64,000 nucleotides of DNA from Zooshikella ganghwensis DSM 15267 (GTDB lineage Bacteria; Pseudomonadota; Gammaproteobacteria; Pseudomonadales; Zooshikellaceae): NCBI RefSeq assembly GCF_000428585.1, contig NZ_AUAF01000013.1, positions 1 to 64,000 of the forward strand. Direction: 5' to 3'. The position numbers and the translations under genes are program-made. The notes beneath the pieces were generated by a model. It was not told the origin of the DNA. It worked only from the letters and a program-made list of their open reading frames with translations, and did not search any database. Below, in pieces: positions 9,336-25,116 of this stretch (the stretch's first letter is position 1; each line of letters opens with the position of its first letter).

Positions 9336-11372
9336 CTAGAGTACTCTCATGCCTGGCTTAGCGCCGCCGTCAGGGTGAATAACCCATAGGTCTTTGCCTC
9401 CAGGACCAGCACAAAGCACCATTCCTTCCGATAAACCAAACCGCATTTTTCTTGGTTTAAGGTTAGCGACAACCACAGTGTGCTTGCCAACTAACTGTTC
9501 AGGGCTATAAGCACTCTTTATCCCAGAAAAGACTGTACGAGTTTGTCCACCTAAATCCAATGTCAGCTTTAACAGCTTTTCTGCCCCCTCAACATGCTCT
9601 GCGTTCGCGATCAGGGCTACGCGTAAGTCAATCTTGGCAAAATCTTCGAAGTTGATTTCGTCCAGAATGGGCTCTTTACTAAGTGGGCTATCGGCTGGTA
9701 TGGCCTGTTGCTTGGGGGCTAGACTTTCTTTGGACGCTTCAACCATTGCACTGACTTTTTTCGGGTCAACCCGGGTTAGCATGGCACTGAATGGTTGAAT
9801 CGCGTGGTTGAGTAAAACCGTATTCACGTCATGCCACTGAAGGGGATCTATACTGAGGAACGCTTCCGTATCTTCAGCTAAAGCCGGAATAATAGGTTTT
9901 AAATACAGCATAATCAGGCGGAATAGGTTAATACCTACGGTACAAACATTAAGGACTTGTTGTTCCTGTCCAGGTTGTTTCGCCAACACCCAAGGTGCTT
10001 GATCATTAATATAGGTGTTTGCTTTATCCGCCAGTGCCATGATCTCGCGAACCGCTTTGGCAAACTCACGCTGTTCATACAAAGAAGCGATTGTTGAGGC
10101 CTGATCTGCAAATGAGGCAATTAAATCTGGCTCACTGTTTTCACTAGAAAGTACACCACCCTGTTTCTTGATGAAGTTGGCACAGCGGCTAGCAATGTTA
10201 ATTACTTTACCCACGAGGTCAGCATTAACACGTTGACAAAAATCTTCTAGGTTAAGGTCAATATCATCAATACGACTGTTGAGCTTTGCGGCATAGTAGT
10301 AGCGCAGATAAGAAGGGTTTAAGTGATCAAGGTAGGTGCGGGCAGTAATGAACGTCCCTCTGGACTTGGACATTTTTTCATTGTTGACGGTGAGATAGCC
10401 ATGTACGCACACTTGAGTAGGGGTGCGATAGCCTGCACCAGATAGCATAGCAGGCCAAAACAGGCAGTGGAAGTTGACAATGTCCTTACCGATAAAATGG
10501 TAAACTTCGGCCCGACTTTCTGGATTCCAGAATGTATCAAAATCGAGGTCATCACGCTTGTCACAGAGGTTTTTAAAGCTAGCCATGTAGCCTATAGGTG
10601 CATCCAGCCAAACGTAAAAGTATTTGCCAGGTGCTTCTGGTATCTCAAAGCCAAAGTAGGGGGCATCACGAGAGATATCCCAGTCTTGTAAACCACTATC
10701 CAGCCATTCGGCAAGCTTATTAGCGATTTCTGGTTGGACGTGCCCAGTTGTTGTCCATTTCTGTAAAAAGTCAGTGAACTCGCTGAGTTTGAAAAAGTAA
10801 TGCTCAGACTGCTTCGTTATTGGTTTTGCGCCAGACAACGTGGATGCTGCATTTTTGAGCTCCGCTGGTGAGTAAGTAGCACTGCATACTTCACAGTTAT
10901 CGCCATACTGGTCTGCCGCGCCACACCGAGGACATTCCCCTTTTATATAACGATCAGCTAAGAACATATGCTTTTCAGGGTCATAAGCCTGGCTGATGGT
11001 TTTTTTGGAAATATGTCCTGCAGAGCGAAGGGCTAAATAGATGGTTTCTGCAAGCTCACGGTTTTCTTCTGAGTGTGTGGAGTAATAGTTATCGAACTCA
11101 ACAGAGAACTCACTAAAGTCTTTGATACGCTCAGCGTTAATATTTTTAACCAGCTCATCTGGCGTGATGCCGAGTTTTTCAGCGTGAAGGCTAATGGCTG
11201 TGCCATGAGCATCATCTGCACAGACATAAATACACTGGTGGCCACGCATTTTTTGAAAACGGACCCAAATATCAGTTTGAATGTATTCCACTAAATGCCC
11301 CATATGCAAAGGACCATTTGCATAGGGTAGGGCGCTTGTTACCAGAATGTTTCGTTTAGCTTCTTGGGTCAT
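9336..11372 (-). CDS. metG: Methionyl-tRNA synthetase
   Basis: A class I aminoacyl-tRNA synthetase charging initiator and elongator tRNA-Met. I choose the ATG that gives [10 protein letters not shown] (678 residues); six extra upstream codons are possible but not family-like. The HIGH motif appears as HMGH (residues 23-26) and the KMSKS loop near 332-336. The zinc knuckle has CPRC and CEVC pairs around 145-162. A C-terminal tRNA-binding (Arc1p/EMAP-like) domain begins near FAKIDLRV and mediates dimerisation. It is transcribed away from the DnaT-like/apbC side, as in Pseudomonas where metG and apbC are divergent. Confidence 0.97.
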
Positions 11373-12293
11373 GGTCAGCCAGTATCTCAATTCTAAAGTT
11401 CAATAAGGGGGCCAATTATAATGCCAAAGATGCTGGGTTTCACCCAGCAATAGTTCAGGTTTTTGCCAATCCAGAATGTTAGCGAACACTTATGGGTTAT
11501 GGTCAAGTATTACTTCAACTAACAAATGTTGACAGAAAAAGGTTGGCATCATTCAAGCCTTCTCTTTTACAATTAAAGGTATACATATTGATACACTACG
11601 TTTGAGGCATTGATTGGCGAGTGAGTCACTGACTCGTTTCCTTGTGTAGGCTACTAGTGGTTTTAGCGTAGTTTCTCTATTTGATTAGAGACTGTCCCTT
11701 AAGTATGAGTGTCGCTAGTGTAAGTCCATAATTAGGTAATATCCCTTACACAGAAGTGTTAGGTAAATAGCAACACTAAAGTAATAAGCTGCCATGCTGG
11801 GTAATTAGGTGAAATGAAATCATGCTACATGTGATGGCTACAGCTTCATACTTTAGGTGTCGTTTAAGAGAACAGTTTTGCCTTAAGTATGGTAGATTAC
11901 CTTAATTACACTGAACTCAACTGAAGTATGTTGGAATAAAACAGCCTTAATCACACCTAATGAGTGGATAGGTTGTGAATAAAGTGAAACGTACTAATTC
12001 TTCTTGCTCGATTTTCAGATATGTCTATAATCGTCGCCCCTTTCTCTTCATTGATTGAAGGAAGGAATTGTAAGGTTAGCCCGTTAAGGCTGAACGCTGG
12101 GCGAAAGGAATTCACCCATTGCTCTTAAAGTAAGATATGTTGGCCTTTGTTGGCGGGTATGTCTTCCTTGGTTAGTGGTCGTGCGAAGCAAAGACATTAG
12201 TCAGTAGGTACGCACAAGATGTATATAGTACGTTGAAGTAGCTGGAGCGACCTTTGCATTAGTAACAGCGGGTAGATAGCAAGCAGGTATGTT
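11373..12293. other. Long non-coding gap between divergent metG and DnaT-like gene
   Basis: About 920 bases without an ORF worth keeping. It holds the metG upstream region, with a perfect 7-bp hairpin at 11431-11449 (loop TTTCA) that would lie in the metG leader. A promoter-like site is at 12004-12031, and a roughly 255-base leader before the DnaT-like gene has several possible short hairpins. I compared it by eye with tRNA, 4.5S, 6S, tmRNA and RNase P RNA patterns and found no match. The middle part (11500-11990) is AT-rich and shows nothing I can name. Confidence 0.4.
12004..12031 (+). promoter_or_regulatory. Sigma70-type promoter with GC-rich discriminator
   Basis: TTGCTC, 16 bases, then a perfect TATAAT, immediately followed by CGTCGCCCC. 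The consensus -10 with a GC-rich start region is typical of strong, stringently controlled promoters of stable RNA or growth-linked genes. Transcription would start near 12038 and give a leader of about 255 bases before the DnaT-like gene. Confidence 0.55.
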
Positions 12294-12767
12294 ATGAGCA
12301 ATGATCGAAAACGATACAATCGTTTACTCAACCAGGGTGTTCCACCTTGGGAAATAGTTACTGCAGAAACTGCTTCAGACTCACCTCAGCACCCGGTTTT
12401 TGGTCGAGGTAGGGAGGCTGATCAGCAGCGCTCAGATAACCAGGAAGGTACATCTGGAGCAAGAGTACAACCTTTGCCTGAGGATTTTGAGCCAGATCCT
12501 CGATATGTTGAGTGGCTTGCTATTCACCATGGAATTCCGGCAGAATTTATTTGGAAGCAACTACCTGATTTCAAGTTATACTGGCTGGAAACAGGTGAAG
12601 CACGTAAAGCTTGGCAAAATCGATTTAAAAACCATGTGATCTATCAGTGGAAGCGCCAGCAAAGTGAAAGACGGCAAAACACTTATCAATCAACGGCTGA
12701 AGAACTTACAGACTACAGCTGGGCCAACAAATTCCGCTTCGAAAGCGGCGTCGAGCGATCCGACTAA
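12294..12767 (+). CDS. DnaT-like single-strand DNA-binding domain protein
   Basis: 157 residues. The N-terminal 60 are polar and probably disordered. The C-terminal half (about 62-121) reads like the DnaT DNA-binding domain: DFEPDPRYVEWLA, GIPAEFIWKQLPDFKLYWLE, then a basic W-x-x-RFK-x-HV-x-x-QW helix. In E. coli, DnaT bridges PriB and DnaC during replication restart. Similar domains also occur in phage and plasmid primosomal proteins. The next gene overlaps it and resembles the lambda P helicase loader, so the two together look like a helicase-loading module. The family is inferred from motif memory, not from a search. Confidence 0.72.
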   Translation: MSNDRKRYNRLLNQGVPPWEIVTAETASDSPQHPVFGRGREADQQRSDNQEGTSGARVQPLPEDFEPDPRYVEWLAIHHGIPAEFIWKQLPDFKLYWLETGEARKAWQNRFKNHVIYQWKRQQSERRQNTYQSTAEELTDYSWANKFRFESGVERSD

Positions 12768-13392
12768 GTATTATCAGGCCATTAATGCTGTTTTTCGGAA
12801 GTTAAGAGCAGCGTCACCGATTAAGTTCCGGTCTGCCTTTCCTACGCAGGATGACCTAGAAGTAGCAAAGTCTTTATGGCTTGATATGCTCAAGGAGTAT
12901 TCGCCTGAGCGAATAGTCAACGCTGCTGACCTTGCTATTCGACACACTGAGTTTTTTCCTGACCTAAAAGAAATTCTTTACTATTGCCGGTTACGCTACG
13001 AAGAGCTTGGCTTAAAAAAGCCCCTGGCGGCCTACTATGAAGCTTGCAATGCTGCTGAGTTTTCGCCTGACTACAGCTGGTCTCATCCTGCCGTGTATTT
13101 AGCGGCAAAAGCCACGGGTTGGATGGTGCTCCGTAGTGAAGAGCAGCGCGTAGCTTTCCCTCTATTTAAAAACAACTATGAGCAATTATGTCAGCGATTA
13201 TTGGATGGTGAGTCGCTTGATGAACCCGTTGCTCTTGCGTTAGAGCACAAAAGATCATCTATTCAAGATGTCGCCGAGCAACAGTCAAATAAACAGCTTC
13301 AAGCAGCCATGCAGGCTCAAGGCATCAATCCTAAAGGCGGGCGAGCTGCATTTCTCGCGCTGCGATCAAAGCTCAAAAAATCTTCTGATTAA
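12664..13392 (+). CDS. Lambda-P-like replication protein (putative helicase loader)
   Basis: 242 residues from a GTG preceded by GGAAG ten bases upstream. The conserved part begins near residue 35: INAVFRKLRAASP, then W-x-x-x-L-KEYSPERI-NAA-x-x-A, F-PDLKEILYYCR, and a C-terminal AAFLALRSKL. Phage lambda P shows the same order: INGVFSQL, a Trp-containing helix, V-AGM-x-x-AR, F-PSPGQFV-WCR and a short C-terminal helix. Lambda P recruits DnaB helicase to an origin. The first 104 bases overlap the DnaT-like gene in another frame; a later start is possible but I see no good ATG. A transferred phage gene turned resident, or a bacterial loader family, are both possible. Confidence 0.65.
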   Translation: MKDGKTLINQRLKNLQTTAGPTNSASKAASSDPTKYYQAINAVFRKLRAASPIKFRSAFPTQDDLEVAKSLWLDMLKEYSPERIVNAADLAIRHTEFFPDLKEILYYCRLRYEELGLKKPLAAYYEACNAAEFSPDYSWSHPAVYLAAKATGWMVLRSEEQRVAFPLFKNNYEQLCQRLLDGESLDEPVALALEHKRSSIQDVAEQQSNKQLQAAMQAQGINPKGGRAAFLALRSKLKKSSD

Positions 13393-13423: not shown

Positions 13424-14518
13424 ATGACCCAACGCATACGCCAGTGTGTTGAATCGTTGATACAACAATCATTAAAGCCATATCTGGATATTCCATTAGT
13501 CACAAGCGATGTCATCAAGCATTTTCAATTGATTGATGATCATCTTGATATTGCAATTGAATTCAACTTTCCTGCAAACGACATCAAACAGCCTTTAGAA
13601 GAAACCCTTAAGCAAGGGCTTGCTGAACTCTCTGATATAACAACTTTGAATATAGTTGTGAATTGGACAGTGCCGACCTTTCCTCGTTTAACGCAAATAC
13701 CAGCGCTGCAGCAGGTCAAAAATATTGTTGCCGTCGCATCAGGTAAGGGAGGGGTCGGCAAATCGACAACTGCTGCTAACTTAGCGCTAGCTTTAGCGCA
13801 AGAAGGTGCCCAAGTGGGTGTTCTTGATGCGGACATTTATGGACCCAGCCAAGGTATGATGTTGGGTGTGGCTGAGGATGCACGTCCAGAAACCATTGAT
13901 GATAAATATTTTAAGCCACTCATAGCTCATAACATTCAAGTCATGTCTATGGCATTTTTGGTGACGGACAAAACGCCTATGGTATGGCGTGGTCCTATGG
14001 TCAGCGGCGCGTTACAGCAGTTGTTACAACAAACACTGTGGCAGTCATTAGATTACCTTATTATTGATATGCCACCAGGCACGGGTGATATTCAATTGAC
14101 TTTGGCCCAGAAAGTGCCAGTAACAGCGGCCGTGATGGTCACCACACCCCAAGATATTGCCTTGCTTGATGTGTGCAAAGGCATTGAAATGTTCCATAAG
14201 GTGAAAGTTCCTGTTGCAGGTGTTGTAGAAAATATGGCCATGCATGTTTGTAGTCAGTGTGGGCATGAGGAGGCAATCTTCGGTGAGGGTGGTGGTGCGC
14301 AGTTAGCTGATGAATATCATGTGCCCTTGCTAGGTTCATTACCACTGGATTTAAAAATACGTCAACAAACAGATAGTGGTAAGCCAACAGTATTAGCCGA
14401 GCCTGATGGTCAGATTGCTGAGCGTTATCGAGTAATTGCAAGAAACATGGCTGTACAGCTGGATAAAATTACCGAGTCGATGTCTTCTGGGCCTACGATT
14501 TCTATTGCGGATGACTAA
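13424..14518 (+). CDS. apbC: Iron-sulfur cluster carrier protein ApbC/Mrp
   Basis: A P-loop ATPase that binds and delivers [4Fe-4S] clusters to apo-proteins. The ATG at 13424 (after GTGGGAGTGAGT, a fair ribosome site) gives 364 residues; the open frame continues upstream into the lambda-P-like gene but is unlike the family there. Domains: a short MIP18/DUF59-like N-terminus (about 5-85), then the Mrp ATPase with deviant Walker A SGKGGVGKST near 108-117, and the cluster-binding C-x-x-C in CSQCGHE near 275-278. The pair apbC-dcd is as in Pseudomonas. Confidence 0.94.
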   Translation: MTQRIRQCVESLIQQSLKPYLDIPLVTSDVIKHFQLIDDHLDIAIEFNFPANDIKQPLEETLKQGLAELSDITTLNIVVNWTVPTFPRLTQIPALQQVKNIVAVASGKGGVGKSTTAANLALALAQEGAQVGVLDADIYGPSQGMMLGVAEDARPETIDDKYFKPLIAHNIQVMSMAFLVTDKTPMVWRGPMVSGALQQLLQQTLWQSLDYLIIDMPPGTGDIQLTLAQKVPVTAAVMVTTPQDIALLDVCKGIEMFHKVKVPVAGVVENMAMHVCSQCGHEEAIFGEGGGAQLADEYHVPLLGSLPLDLKIRQQTDSGKPTVLAEPDGQIAERYRVIARNMAVQLDKITESMSSGPTISIADD

Positions 14519-14570: not shown

Positions 14571-15155
14571 ATGAGACTGTGTGATCGTGATATTGAAGCG
14601 TTGATGGAGCAAGGAGAGATTGTAATCGATCCACAGCCACCATTATCTCGAATTAATGGTGTCAGTGTTGACTTAACACTGGGTAATAGCTTTCGGGTGT
14701 TTAATGATCATGCAGCCCCCTATGTTGACCTGAGTGGTCCTAGGGAAGAAATGGATCGTGTACTTGACTCGATTATGAGCAAGGAAATTATCCTGGAAGA
14801 TGAAGAGTCCTTCTTCTTACACCCTGGCGAATTGGCATTGGCTGTTACTAAAGAATCCGTGACGTTACCAGATAACATTGTTGGTTGGCTTGATGGTCGT
14901 TCTTCCCTGGCACGCCTTGGGTTGATGGTGCATGTAACTGCGCACCGAATTGATCCTGGTTGGAGTGGACAGATTGTATTGGAGTTTTTTAATGGCGGAA
15001 AGCTACCTCTTGGTTTAAAGCCTAATATGACCATTGGTGCCATTAATTTTGAAACGATGACTGGTCCAGCGATGCGCCCTTATAATAAGCGACAAGATGC
15101 TAAGTACCGCAATCAATCCAGTGCGATTGCCAGTCGAATTAGTCGTGATAGTTAA
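14571..15155 (+). CDS. dcd: dCTP deaminase
   Basis: Converts dCTP to dUTP for thymidylate synthesis; a trimeric enzyme of the dUTPase fold. It is 194 residues, close to the 193 of E. coli. The family signature [13 protein letters not shown] carries Ser111 and Arg115, HRIDPGW is present, and the catalytic Glu138 lies in VLEFF. It is preceded by GGAG about eight bases before the ATG and follows apbC by 52 bases. Confidence 0.97.
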
Positions 15156-24243: not shown

Positions 24244-24357
24244 CTTGATTAATAGGTAAGTAATTTTAACCCCACACATGTGCCGTCACATAGACTTGGG
24301 TGCCGAAAGGTTGGTCTATGGGGTACATGGAGGCTTAACCCATTTATAGGAGTTAGT
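24244..24357 (+). promoter_or_regulatory. rpsB mRNA leader, probable S2 autoregulatory element
   Basis: The untranslated leader contains CACATGTGCCGTCACAT, GGGTGCCGAAAGGTTGG, and GGGGTACATGGAGGCTTAACCC before the ribosome site. In E. coli, S2 represses rpsB-tsf through a conserved leader, and gammaproteobacterial leaders carry comparable paired GTGCCG/GGTGCCG blocks. That this one works the same way is inference from position and pattern. An in-frame ATG-like extension of rpsB upstream (ORF start 24280) would be inside this leader and is unlikely to be used. Confidence 0.5.
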
Positions 24358-25116
24358 ATGCCAAAAGTAACAATGCGTGAAATGCTGAAAGCCGGCGTTC
24401 ACTTTGGTCACCAAACCCGTTACTGGAACCCAAAAATGGGCAAATACATTTTTGGTTCTCGCAACAAAATTCATATCATTAACCTGGAGCATACCCTTCC
24501 AGCATTCAATAGCGCTTTAGCTTCAGTTCAAAAAATGGCAGAAGCGAAGAAGAAAGTGTTGTTTGTTGGGACAAAGCGTGCCGCCGGGAAGATTATTCGT
24601 GAAGAAGCGCAGCGTGCAGGAATGCCTTATGTTGACCACCGTTGGTTGGGTGGCATGCTGACAAACTACAAGACAATTCGTCAGTCTATTCGCCGCTTAC
24701 GTGAGCTTGAAAGCCAAAGTCAAGATGGTACCTTTGAAAAGCTAACGAAAAAAGAAGCTTTGATGCGTAGTCGTGACATGGAAAAGCTAGAGCGTAGTCT
24801 TGGCGGAATCAAAGACATGGGCGGTTTGCCTGACGCTTTGTTCGTAATTGATGTTGATCATGAGCGTATTGCCATCAGCGAAGCAAATAAGCTTGGTATC
24901 CCCGTAATCGGCGTTGTTGATACCAACAGCAGCCCAGAGGGTGTTGATGTGGTTATTCCTGGTAATGATGATGCTATCCGCGCCATTCAACTGTATGTAC
25001 AGTCTGTAGCAAATGCTATTGTTGAAGGCCGTTCTGCTTCAGATGTTGGTGCTAAAGATGAGTTCGTAGAAGAAGTTGACGAGCAAGGTGAAGCACAAGC
25101 GGCTGCTGAAGGCTAA
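24358..25116 (+). CDS. rpsB: 30S ribosomal protein S2
   Basis: 252 residues starting [20 protein letters not shown], with AGGAG seven bases upstream of the ATG. Signature stretches [41 protein letters not shown] and [20 protein letters not shown] are all present. The acidic C-terminal tail ([12 protein letters not shown]) extends slightly beyond the core. Followed by a hairpin and tsf. Confidence 0.98.

Follow-up and report, generated by a model that had tools for sequence, protein, structure and literature searches.

A resident phage-derived gene pair as the probable replicative helicase loader of Zooshikella ganghwensis

A resident pair of helicase-loader genes derived from phage lambda, dopC and dopE, was reportedly described by Brezellec et al. 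in 2017 in Gammaproteobacteria that lack both dciA and dnaC/I, and their paper is said to answer the question of an acquired loader that the 2016 DciA paper had raised. The article (Brezellec et al. 2017, Genome Biol Evol 9:1561) is cited in excerpts of PMC13326638, PMC6784150, and PMC10201434, and the name DopE is used in this citing literature, as excerpted. Excerpts of the 2016 paper itself report Cellvibrionales and three Oceanospirillales species that lack both known loaders, and ask whether Cellvibrionales acquired another one (PMC5109545). Loader replacement is thus already in print and the system itself is not new; the locus reported here is a further, compact, and rather reduced example of a known swap.

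The components of the pair have relatives in well-studied systems. Lambda P is described as a ring-breaking loader of DnaB (PMC6391071; PMC9912922, both in excerpt), and its partner O is held to bind DNA by its N-terminal part (PMC6022878, in excerpt). For E. coli DnaT, a filament of the C-terminal domain on single-stranded DNA (ssDNA) marks where loading takes place in the preprimosome (PMC13377028, in excerpt).

We analysed a window of 64,000 nucleotides (positions 1 to 64,000 of contig NZ_AUAF01000013.1, assembly GCF_000428585.1) from Z. ganghwensis DSM 15267, a draft genome of 5.80 Mb in 414 contigs that is 99.1% complete. An initial annotation, made by eye, had named a DnaT-type and a lambda-P-like gene in overlapping frames, located between metG and apbC-dcd with no phage genes around them, and had suggested that they are a fixed phage module domesticated in place of the host's own loader. 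Both open reading frames (ORFs) were recovered at the positions given in Table 1, both family calls were borne out by profiles scoring above their cut-offs, and the neighbours, again read by eye, agree with the described setting. Together with the absence of dciA and dnaC and the conserved gene order, these profiles support the suggestion of domestication. The pair is very probably a chromosomal replicative-helicase loader, a domesticated lambda O-P module (DopC-DopE) that replaces DciA.

Table 1. Positions of the gene pair, its parts, and its neighbours in the window
Feature	Coordinates	Strand	Description
metG	9336..11390	-	divergent neighbour; named by eye; listed start codon may be too far upstream
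dopC-like gene	12294..12767	+	start ATG; 157 aa; one DnaT DNA-binding domain; PF17948, 7.7e-20
DnaT domain	12468..12668	+	DopC residues 59-125; PF17948
dopE-like gene	12664..13392	+	start GTG; 242 aa; PF06992, 7.1e-12; phrog_109, 4.5e-24
Two-frame gene overlap	12664..12767	+	104 nt
D-Y-S-W tail	12711..12722	+	DopC residues 140-143; proposed docking peptide for DopE
Phage_lambda_P domain	12778..13227	+	DopE residues 39-188; Pfam
apbC/mrp	13424..14518	+	downstream neighbour; named by eye; start taken as the in-frame ATG at 13424
dcd	14571..15155	+	downstream neighbour; named by eye

DopE matches the Pfam family Phage_lambda_P (PF06992) with 45.8 bits against a cut-off of 26, and the PHROG family phrog_109, "P-like helicase loader," with 86.6 bits. 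The Pfam search returned no AAA+ family for this protein, the only other match being a sub-threshold one to G39P (0.012), and an NCBIfam search gave nothing for DopC or DopE. By sequence profile, the best PDB match is the helicase loader 8v9t_V (1.2e-9). The structural model of DopE is all-helical (pLDDT 84.6), and its best fold match is lambda P on E. coli DnaB (9oa1; Foldseek E 2.5e-4, probability 1.00). Compared with 9oa1 over the whole chain, it gives a Z of 9.2 and an rmsd of 11.7 over 193 residues; therefore, DopE and lambda P agree domain by domain only. The N-terminal domain of DopE resembles SPP1 G39P (Z 8.7, rmsd 1.8, 67 residues), whereas the G39P chain, of 126 residues, lacks the P-like C-terminal half. 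Middling Z values of this kind are usual for helical models, and the next unrelated rows for DopE lie at 4.6 and below.

DopC matches the DnaT family (PF17948) with 70.8 bits against a cut-off of 25, and no helix-turn-helix or Phage_rep_O domain was matched in it by Pfam. Its structural model (pLDDT 69.9) is confident only in about residues 61-125, with a low-confidence N-terminus, and a fold search with this weak model reached DnaT only at E 2.2, which is uninformative. A link to E. coli DnaT comes instead from sequence profile A3, built without that protein, which matches chains of the DnaT C-terminal domain (6.7e-5) and covers DnaT residues 90-146 only, within the C-terminal domain and outside the N-terminal oligomerisation domain; A3 is preferred to profile A2, which contains E. 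coli DnaT and matches DnaT chains by construction.

A DnaT ORF is present in 76 of the 80 named loci with a dopE gene. Counted with a local DnaT profile made from eight domains, the window's among them, such ORFs carry three domains at 55 loci, four at 13, two at three, and one at five, and none was found at the remaining four. The window's single domain is closest to the third of the three domains in the XeTr1 protein (50%, versus 34% and 35% for the others), and its DopC looks like a shortened form, as judged from these similarities; expansion of the domain in XeTr1, where the pair occupies the same genomic place, is a possible alternative. All 17 resident-type DopC ORFs scanned, the window's and 16 others, contain DnaT and nothing else (Pfam, E 0.001).

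Set against the described systems, the locus agrees with dopC-dopE in having a P-like gene with a DnaT-domain gene directly upstream, in being resident, and in belonging to a genome without dciA and dnaC. It differs in its DopC, a protein of 157 aa with one DnaT domain as opposed to two to four in 71 of the 80 named loci, and in its place between metG and apbC-dcd. With lambda it shares the gene order, O then P, the P family, and the motif [DN]-x(1,2)-W near the end of O, but no domain like the DNA-binding part of O was found in DopC, and the lambda O and P genes overlap by 4 nt rather than 104. As in E. coli, a helicase loader gene comes after a DnaT-domain gene, DnaB is the target of either type of loader, and the DNA-binding domain of DopC is that of the DnaT C-terminus. 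DnaC, however, is an AAA+ protein according to excerpted literature, whereas DopE is P-like, with neither an AAA+ nor a DnaC match. DciA, for which we propose the same role, belongs to an unrelated family (PF05258).

No PF05258 match was found in the Z. ganghwensis genome, nor in the four other sampled genomes of its family. In six relatives, one from each of six families, dciA lies before secA in every case, adjoins lpxC in five and ftsZ in the sixth (L208, which has no LpxC hit), and is separated from secA by an M23-like gene in four. Z. ganghwensis retains the order ftsZ-lpxC-gap-M23-secA (LpxC identified by profile; FtsZ, SecA, and the M23-like gene by eye), and the gap, of 524 bp without dciA, holds no ORF of at least 60 aa and no DciA remnant. 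A hidden DciA was considered and rejected, since there was no profile match and the DciA sequences of the six relatives, searched against the lpxC-secA gap, gave at best an 11-residue hit (E 1.0).

A search of the same genome with E. coli DnaC gave no match, an empty answer that calls for a positive control. The PF01695 profile, which does detect its target in E. coli, found only five C-terminal fragments of one IS21-type gene, each cut off by a contig end, and, marginally, a 576-aa ORF that reads as DnaA; a hidden DnaC was rejected on these grounds. Neither gene was thus found elsewhere in the genome, a check that the initial annotation had proposed. The IS21-type fragments are the same istB C-terminal fragment on the ends of contigs C246, C49, C153, C122, and C227, and a repeated insertion sequence therefore breaks this assembly.

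Beyond this genome, the pair and DciA are distributed in a nearly exclusive manner. We searched 390 genomes of the order with the Pfam profiles and with a DopE profile (A1) built from 36 sequences. DciA was matched in 122 genomes, DnaT in 232, and DopE in 237, while the Pfam lambda P profile matched only 64. DopE occurs with DnaT in 230 genomes and with DciA in seven (E-values 2e-35 to 8e-8); one genome (G230) has all three, and 38 have none. Tabulated for DnaT and DciA, three genomes have both, 229 only DnaT, 119 only DciA, and 39 neither (Fisher p 4e-61, a value that is overstated since the genomes are kin). The split follows families, and the three double occurrences are in two families (f21 and f29) where DciA is the rule.

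The 38 genomes without DciA, DnaT, or DopE matches at these cut-offs (e.g., G022, G035, G043, and G045) either have loaders that the profiles missed or have found a further solution. A divergent DciA is likely for some of them, other genomes of f35 and f43 matching DciA mostly near the cut-off, and a further loader is possible for others.

In a class-wide sample of 369 genomes, A1 matched 19, and 10 of the 18 besides Z. ganghwensis also have DciA. Four genomes (G392, G434, G563, and G669) have no DciA match, and in each the P-like gene is directly preceded by an ORF that carries two or three DnaT domains; the resident pair therefore appears to extend outside the order. The P-like gene of G434, which lies next to a three-domain ORF, nevertheless fell outside resident DopE in the tree described below. 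Three genomes of f149 (G491, G607, and G706) and G549 also have no DciA match and have one or more P-like genes, which fall outside resident DopE in the tree or are weak matches. One record titled "MAG: Klebsiella pneumoniae" (CAMDML010000031.1) contains a dopE gene whose matched segment shares 40% identity with the window's, at a locus where no DnaT ORF was found; its title looks wrong or its bin mixed.

The genes around the pair in the window, read by eye, are rnf genes, metG, apbC, and dcd, and no phage genes were recognised among them. The complete order metG-pair-apbC-dcd is found in Zooshikella harenae, in XeTr1, and in two genomes of the window's family (G071 and G100), and in Parendozoicomonas and Kistimonas apbC and dcd lie beside the pair and metG was not found. 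By locus, metG is syntenic in L071, L073, L159, and L160, and apbC/mrp with dcd in these and in L072 and L077. The synteny that the initial annotation proposed to look for in related genera thus exists, with other places elsewhere in the order: the window's place is shown by four of the 80 named loci (those of Z. harenae, XeTr1, Parendozoicomonas, and Kistimonas), and in the other 76 no metG, apbC, or dcd was found within the up to 6 kb searched on each side. The Cellvibrio pair adjoins a glucosaminidase gene and a gene that matches the TonB plug below threshold, and that of Motiliproteus a DUF3549 gene. The pair is thus resident but variable in place between lineages.

Both genes are under purifying selection and behave as real genes. 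In a comparison with Z. harenae (L071), whose DopE is 91% identical, the parts outside the overlap have a dN of 0.032 and a dS of 0.37 for dopC, and a dN of 0.041 and a dS of 2.17, near saturation, for dopE. Inside the overlap dS is 0.10 and 0.04, values that derive from very few changes; silent change is low there because two coding frames are read. When start codons are chosen by rule, 40 of the 43 other loci measured have an overlap of 68-107 nt.

The roughly 900 bases between metG and dopC (11391-12293) contain no ORF of 60 aa and no Rfam match. A promoter and terminator scan gave signals no more than in shuffled sequence, and in this interval no promoter stood above the shuffles. A t44 RNA (RF00127, 72 bits) lies at 24255-24339, 12 kb from the pair, and overlaps the listed start of a 278-aa ORF on the same strand (24280-25116).

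The Z. ganghwensis genome also carries two further lambda-P genes amid phage genes. On contig C99, Phage_rep_O and P genes are accompanied by genes for a repressor, RecT, and a tape measure protein, and C178 has an O-like gene followed by a P gene. The O-like protein of C178 consists of a helix-turn-helix (HTH_36) and then a DnaT domain, and the C99 protein has Phage_rep_O with no DnaT match; the C178 type, with its P gene next to it, is likely the ancestral form of the resident pair. The P gene of C99 and that of viral contig IMGVR_UViG_2524614643_000009 each match the window's DopE at 37%. Genomes of the window's family have three to nine lambda-P matches each; the one with nine (G128) perhaps carries several related prophages. 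Of 73 viral contigs that contain a relative of P, 64 have no same-strand DnaT domain and nine have one; none has more. A tblastn search of phage records found 16 with DopE relatives, at 26-30% identity among the 15 matches listed, and none with a DopC relative.

In a first phylogenetic tree, the window's DopE lies within a group of 35 resident rows (99/95), apart from both prophage copies in the Z. ganghwensis genome. The other rows labelled resident, 48 in all, comprise a second group of 10 (100/99), with Motiliproteus, Marinobacterium, and further kin, and three (L036, L158, and L178) that fall among phage rows. For a second tree, L036 and L158 were relabelled as phage because they have no adjoining DnaT ORF, and L178, nine other resident rows, and eight phage rows were left out. 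A single clade of all resident DopE, a group named after the first tree was seen, had a p-AU of 0.485 in this second tree and was neither shown nor rejected; the two resident groups may stem from one capture or from more. The "phage" label mostly means that no DnaT partner of the resident type was found or that the lambda-P score was strong, surrounding phage genes having been confirmed for L151 and L152 besides the named phage records. On the combined basis of synteny, tree, and selection, the window pair is resident and vertically kept, and is not a prophage.

DopC ends in a short motif that offers a candidate contact between the two proteins. The pattern [DN]-x(1,2)-W occurs within the last 35 residues of 75 of the 76 DnaT ORFs at the named loci versus 24 of 595 control ORFs, the controls being other stop-to-stop frames of at least 250 aa at these loci rather than all genes. 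The narrower D-x(1,2)-W is found in 74 of the 76, N having been admitted after lambda O was seen. In the window the motif falls inside the overlap with dopE, and two loci without an overlap (L052 and L053) still have the tail. It is also present in six phage or prophage ORFs upstream of P, which we assume to be O-like (those of lambda, PAJU2, VW-6S, AUS531phi, C99, and C178), and is absent from four prophage ORFs of the window's family (L013-L015 and L168). Among viral contigs, it was seen in two of nine DnaT-bearing ORFs and, with a crude rule for picking the ORF that precedes P, in 10 of 64 such ORFs. The tail is thus nearly fixed in resident DopC, patchy in phages, and rare in viral contigs. 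Literature searches, one of them narrow and with most subscription papers outside their scope, found neither the tail motif nor DopC domain counts.

Published work suggests that P is bound by the C-terminal region of lambda O; the amber mutant Oam205, whose O product is 294 residues long, shows a defect and only weak complementation (PMC6022878, in excerpt). For these reasons we propose the tail of DopC as a peptide that may dock DopE. Lambda O has 299 residues by its record and ends in N-T-D-W plus six residues; Oam205 therefore stops one residue after the tryptophan. Since it keeps N-T-D-W and loses only what follows, the mutant speaks for the tail end and not for the motif.

Other functions have to be weighed against helicase loading at the origin. 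The DnaT domain of DopC is that of an E. coli restart protein, whose C-terminal domain marks the loading site in restart (PMC13377028, in excerpt), and the pair could accordingly be a PriA-type primosome adapter for replication restart, as E. coli DnaT is, with another factor loading at oriC; DopE may act only at restart. We consider this unlikely, because DciA is described as essential for initiation (PMC5109545, in excerpt) and the exclusion between it and the pair ties the pair to the main loader, and because P-like loaders act directly on DnaB; restart and oriC loading are roles compatible with each other. Far less probable is that the resident P-like protein is kept as a defence against incoming lambdoid phages, capturing DnaB or phage O, and does not load the host helicase. 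Lambda P is toxic to E. coli, probably because it sequesters DnaB (PMC4926192, in excerpt), and extra P-like genes are frequent in the window's family, with the three to nine matches per genome noted above, but a defence gene would explain neither the near-constant presence of the pair in its families nor the absence of dciA.

We give almost no credence to the pair being a functionless prophage leftover. Its families are phage families, and prophage contigs of the same genome carry O-P pairs, yet no phage genes were recognised near the pair, dN is far below dS in both genes, and other family members and three named lineages outside the genus have the pair at the same site, in two of those lineages as seen from the apbC-dcd side alone. 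Both genes are present in most genomes of the order sample, and the window's DopE groups with resident DopE. A prophage remnant was accordingly rejected on synteny, selection, and spread.

Returning to DopC-DopE as the main loader, we infer the function of the pair in the cell, its site of action, and each binding step as follows. DnaA would open oriC, and the DnaT domain of DopC would bind the exposed single strand, in the manner of the C-terminal domain of E. coli DnaT; without the helix-turn-helix of phage O-like proteins, DopC would not itself choose the origin. The D-Y-S-W tail would then grip DopE at its N-terminal domain, a contact like the one that may join the C-terminal part of lambda O to the N-terminal part of P. 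With its C-terminal half, DopE would keep DnaB open, as lambda P does, and lay it on the strand marked by DopC, after which DopE would depart and DnaB run.

A more specific version of this scheme, which we put forward tentatively as a possibility that may well prove wrong, is that DopC is a minimal helicase-placement adapter, made up of DnaT domains that coat ssDNA and a tail that recruits DopE-DnaB, and that loss of the origin-binding domain of O made a phage initiator follow DnaA. If so, four fused DnaT domains would amount to a ready-made filament, and the tail would be the same as the O-P contact of lambda.

Helicase loading is essential, and yet the loader has been replaced by phage genes several times. 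Z. ganghwensis offers a compact case of this little-studied swap, with the empty place of dciA and prophage kin of both genes in a single genome, and the tail motif makes the contact proposed for DopC-DopE and for lambda O-P directly testable.
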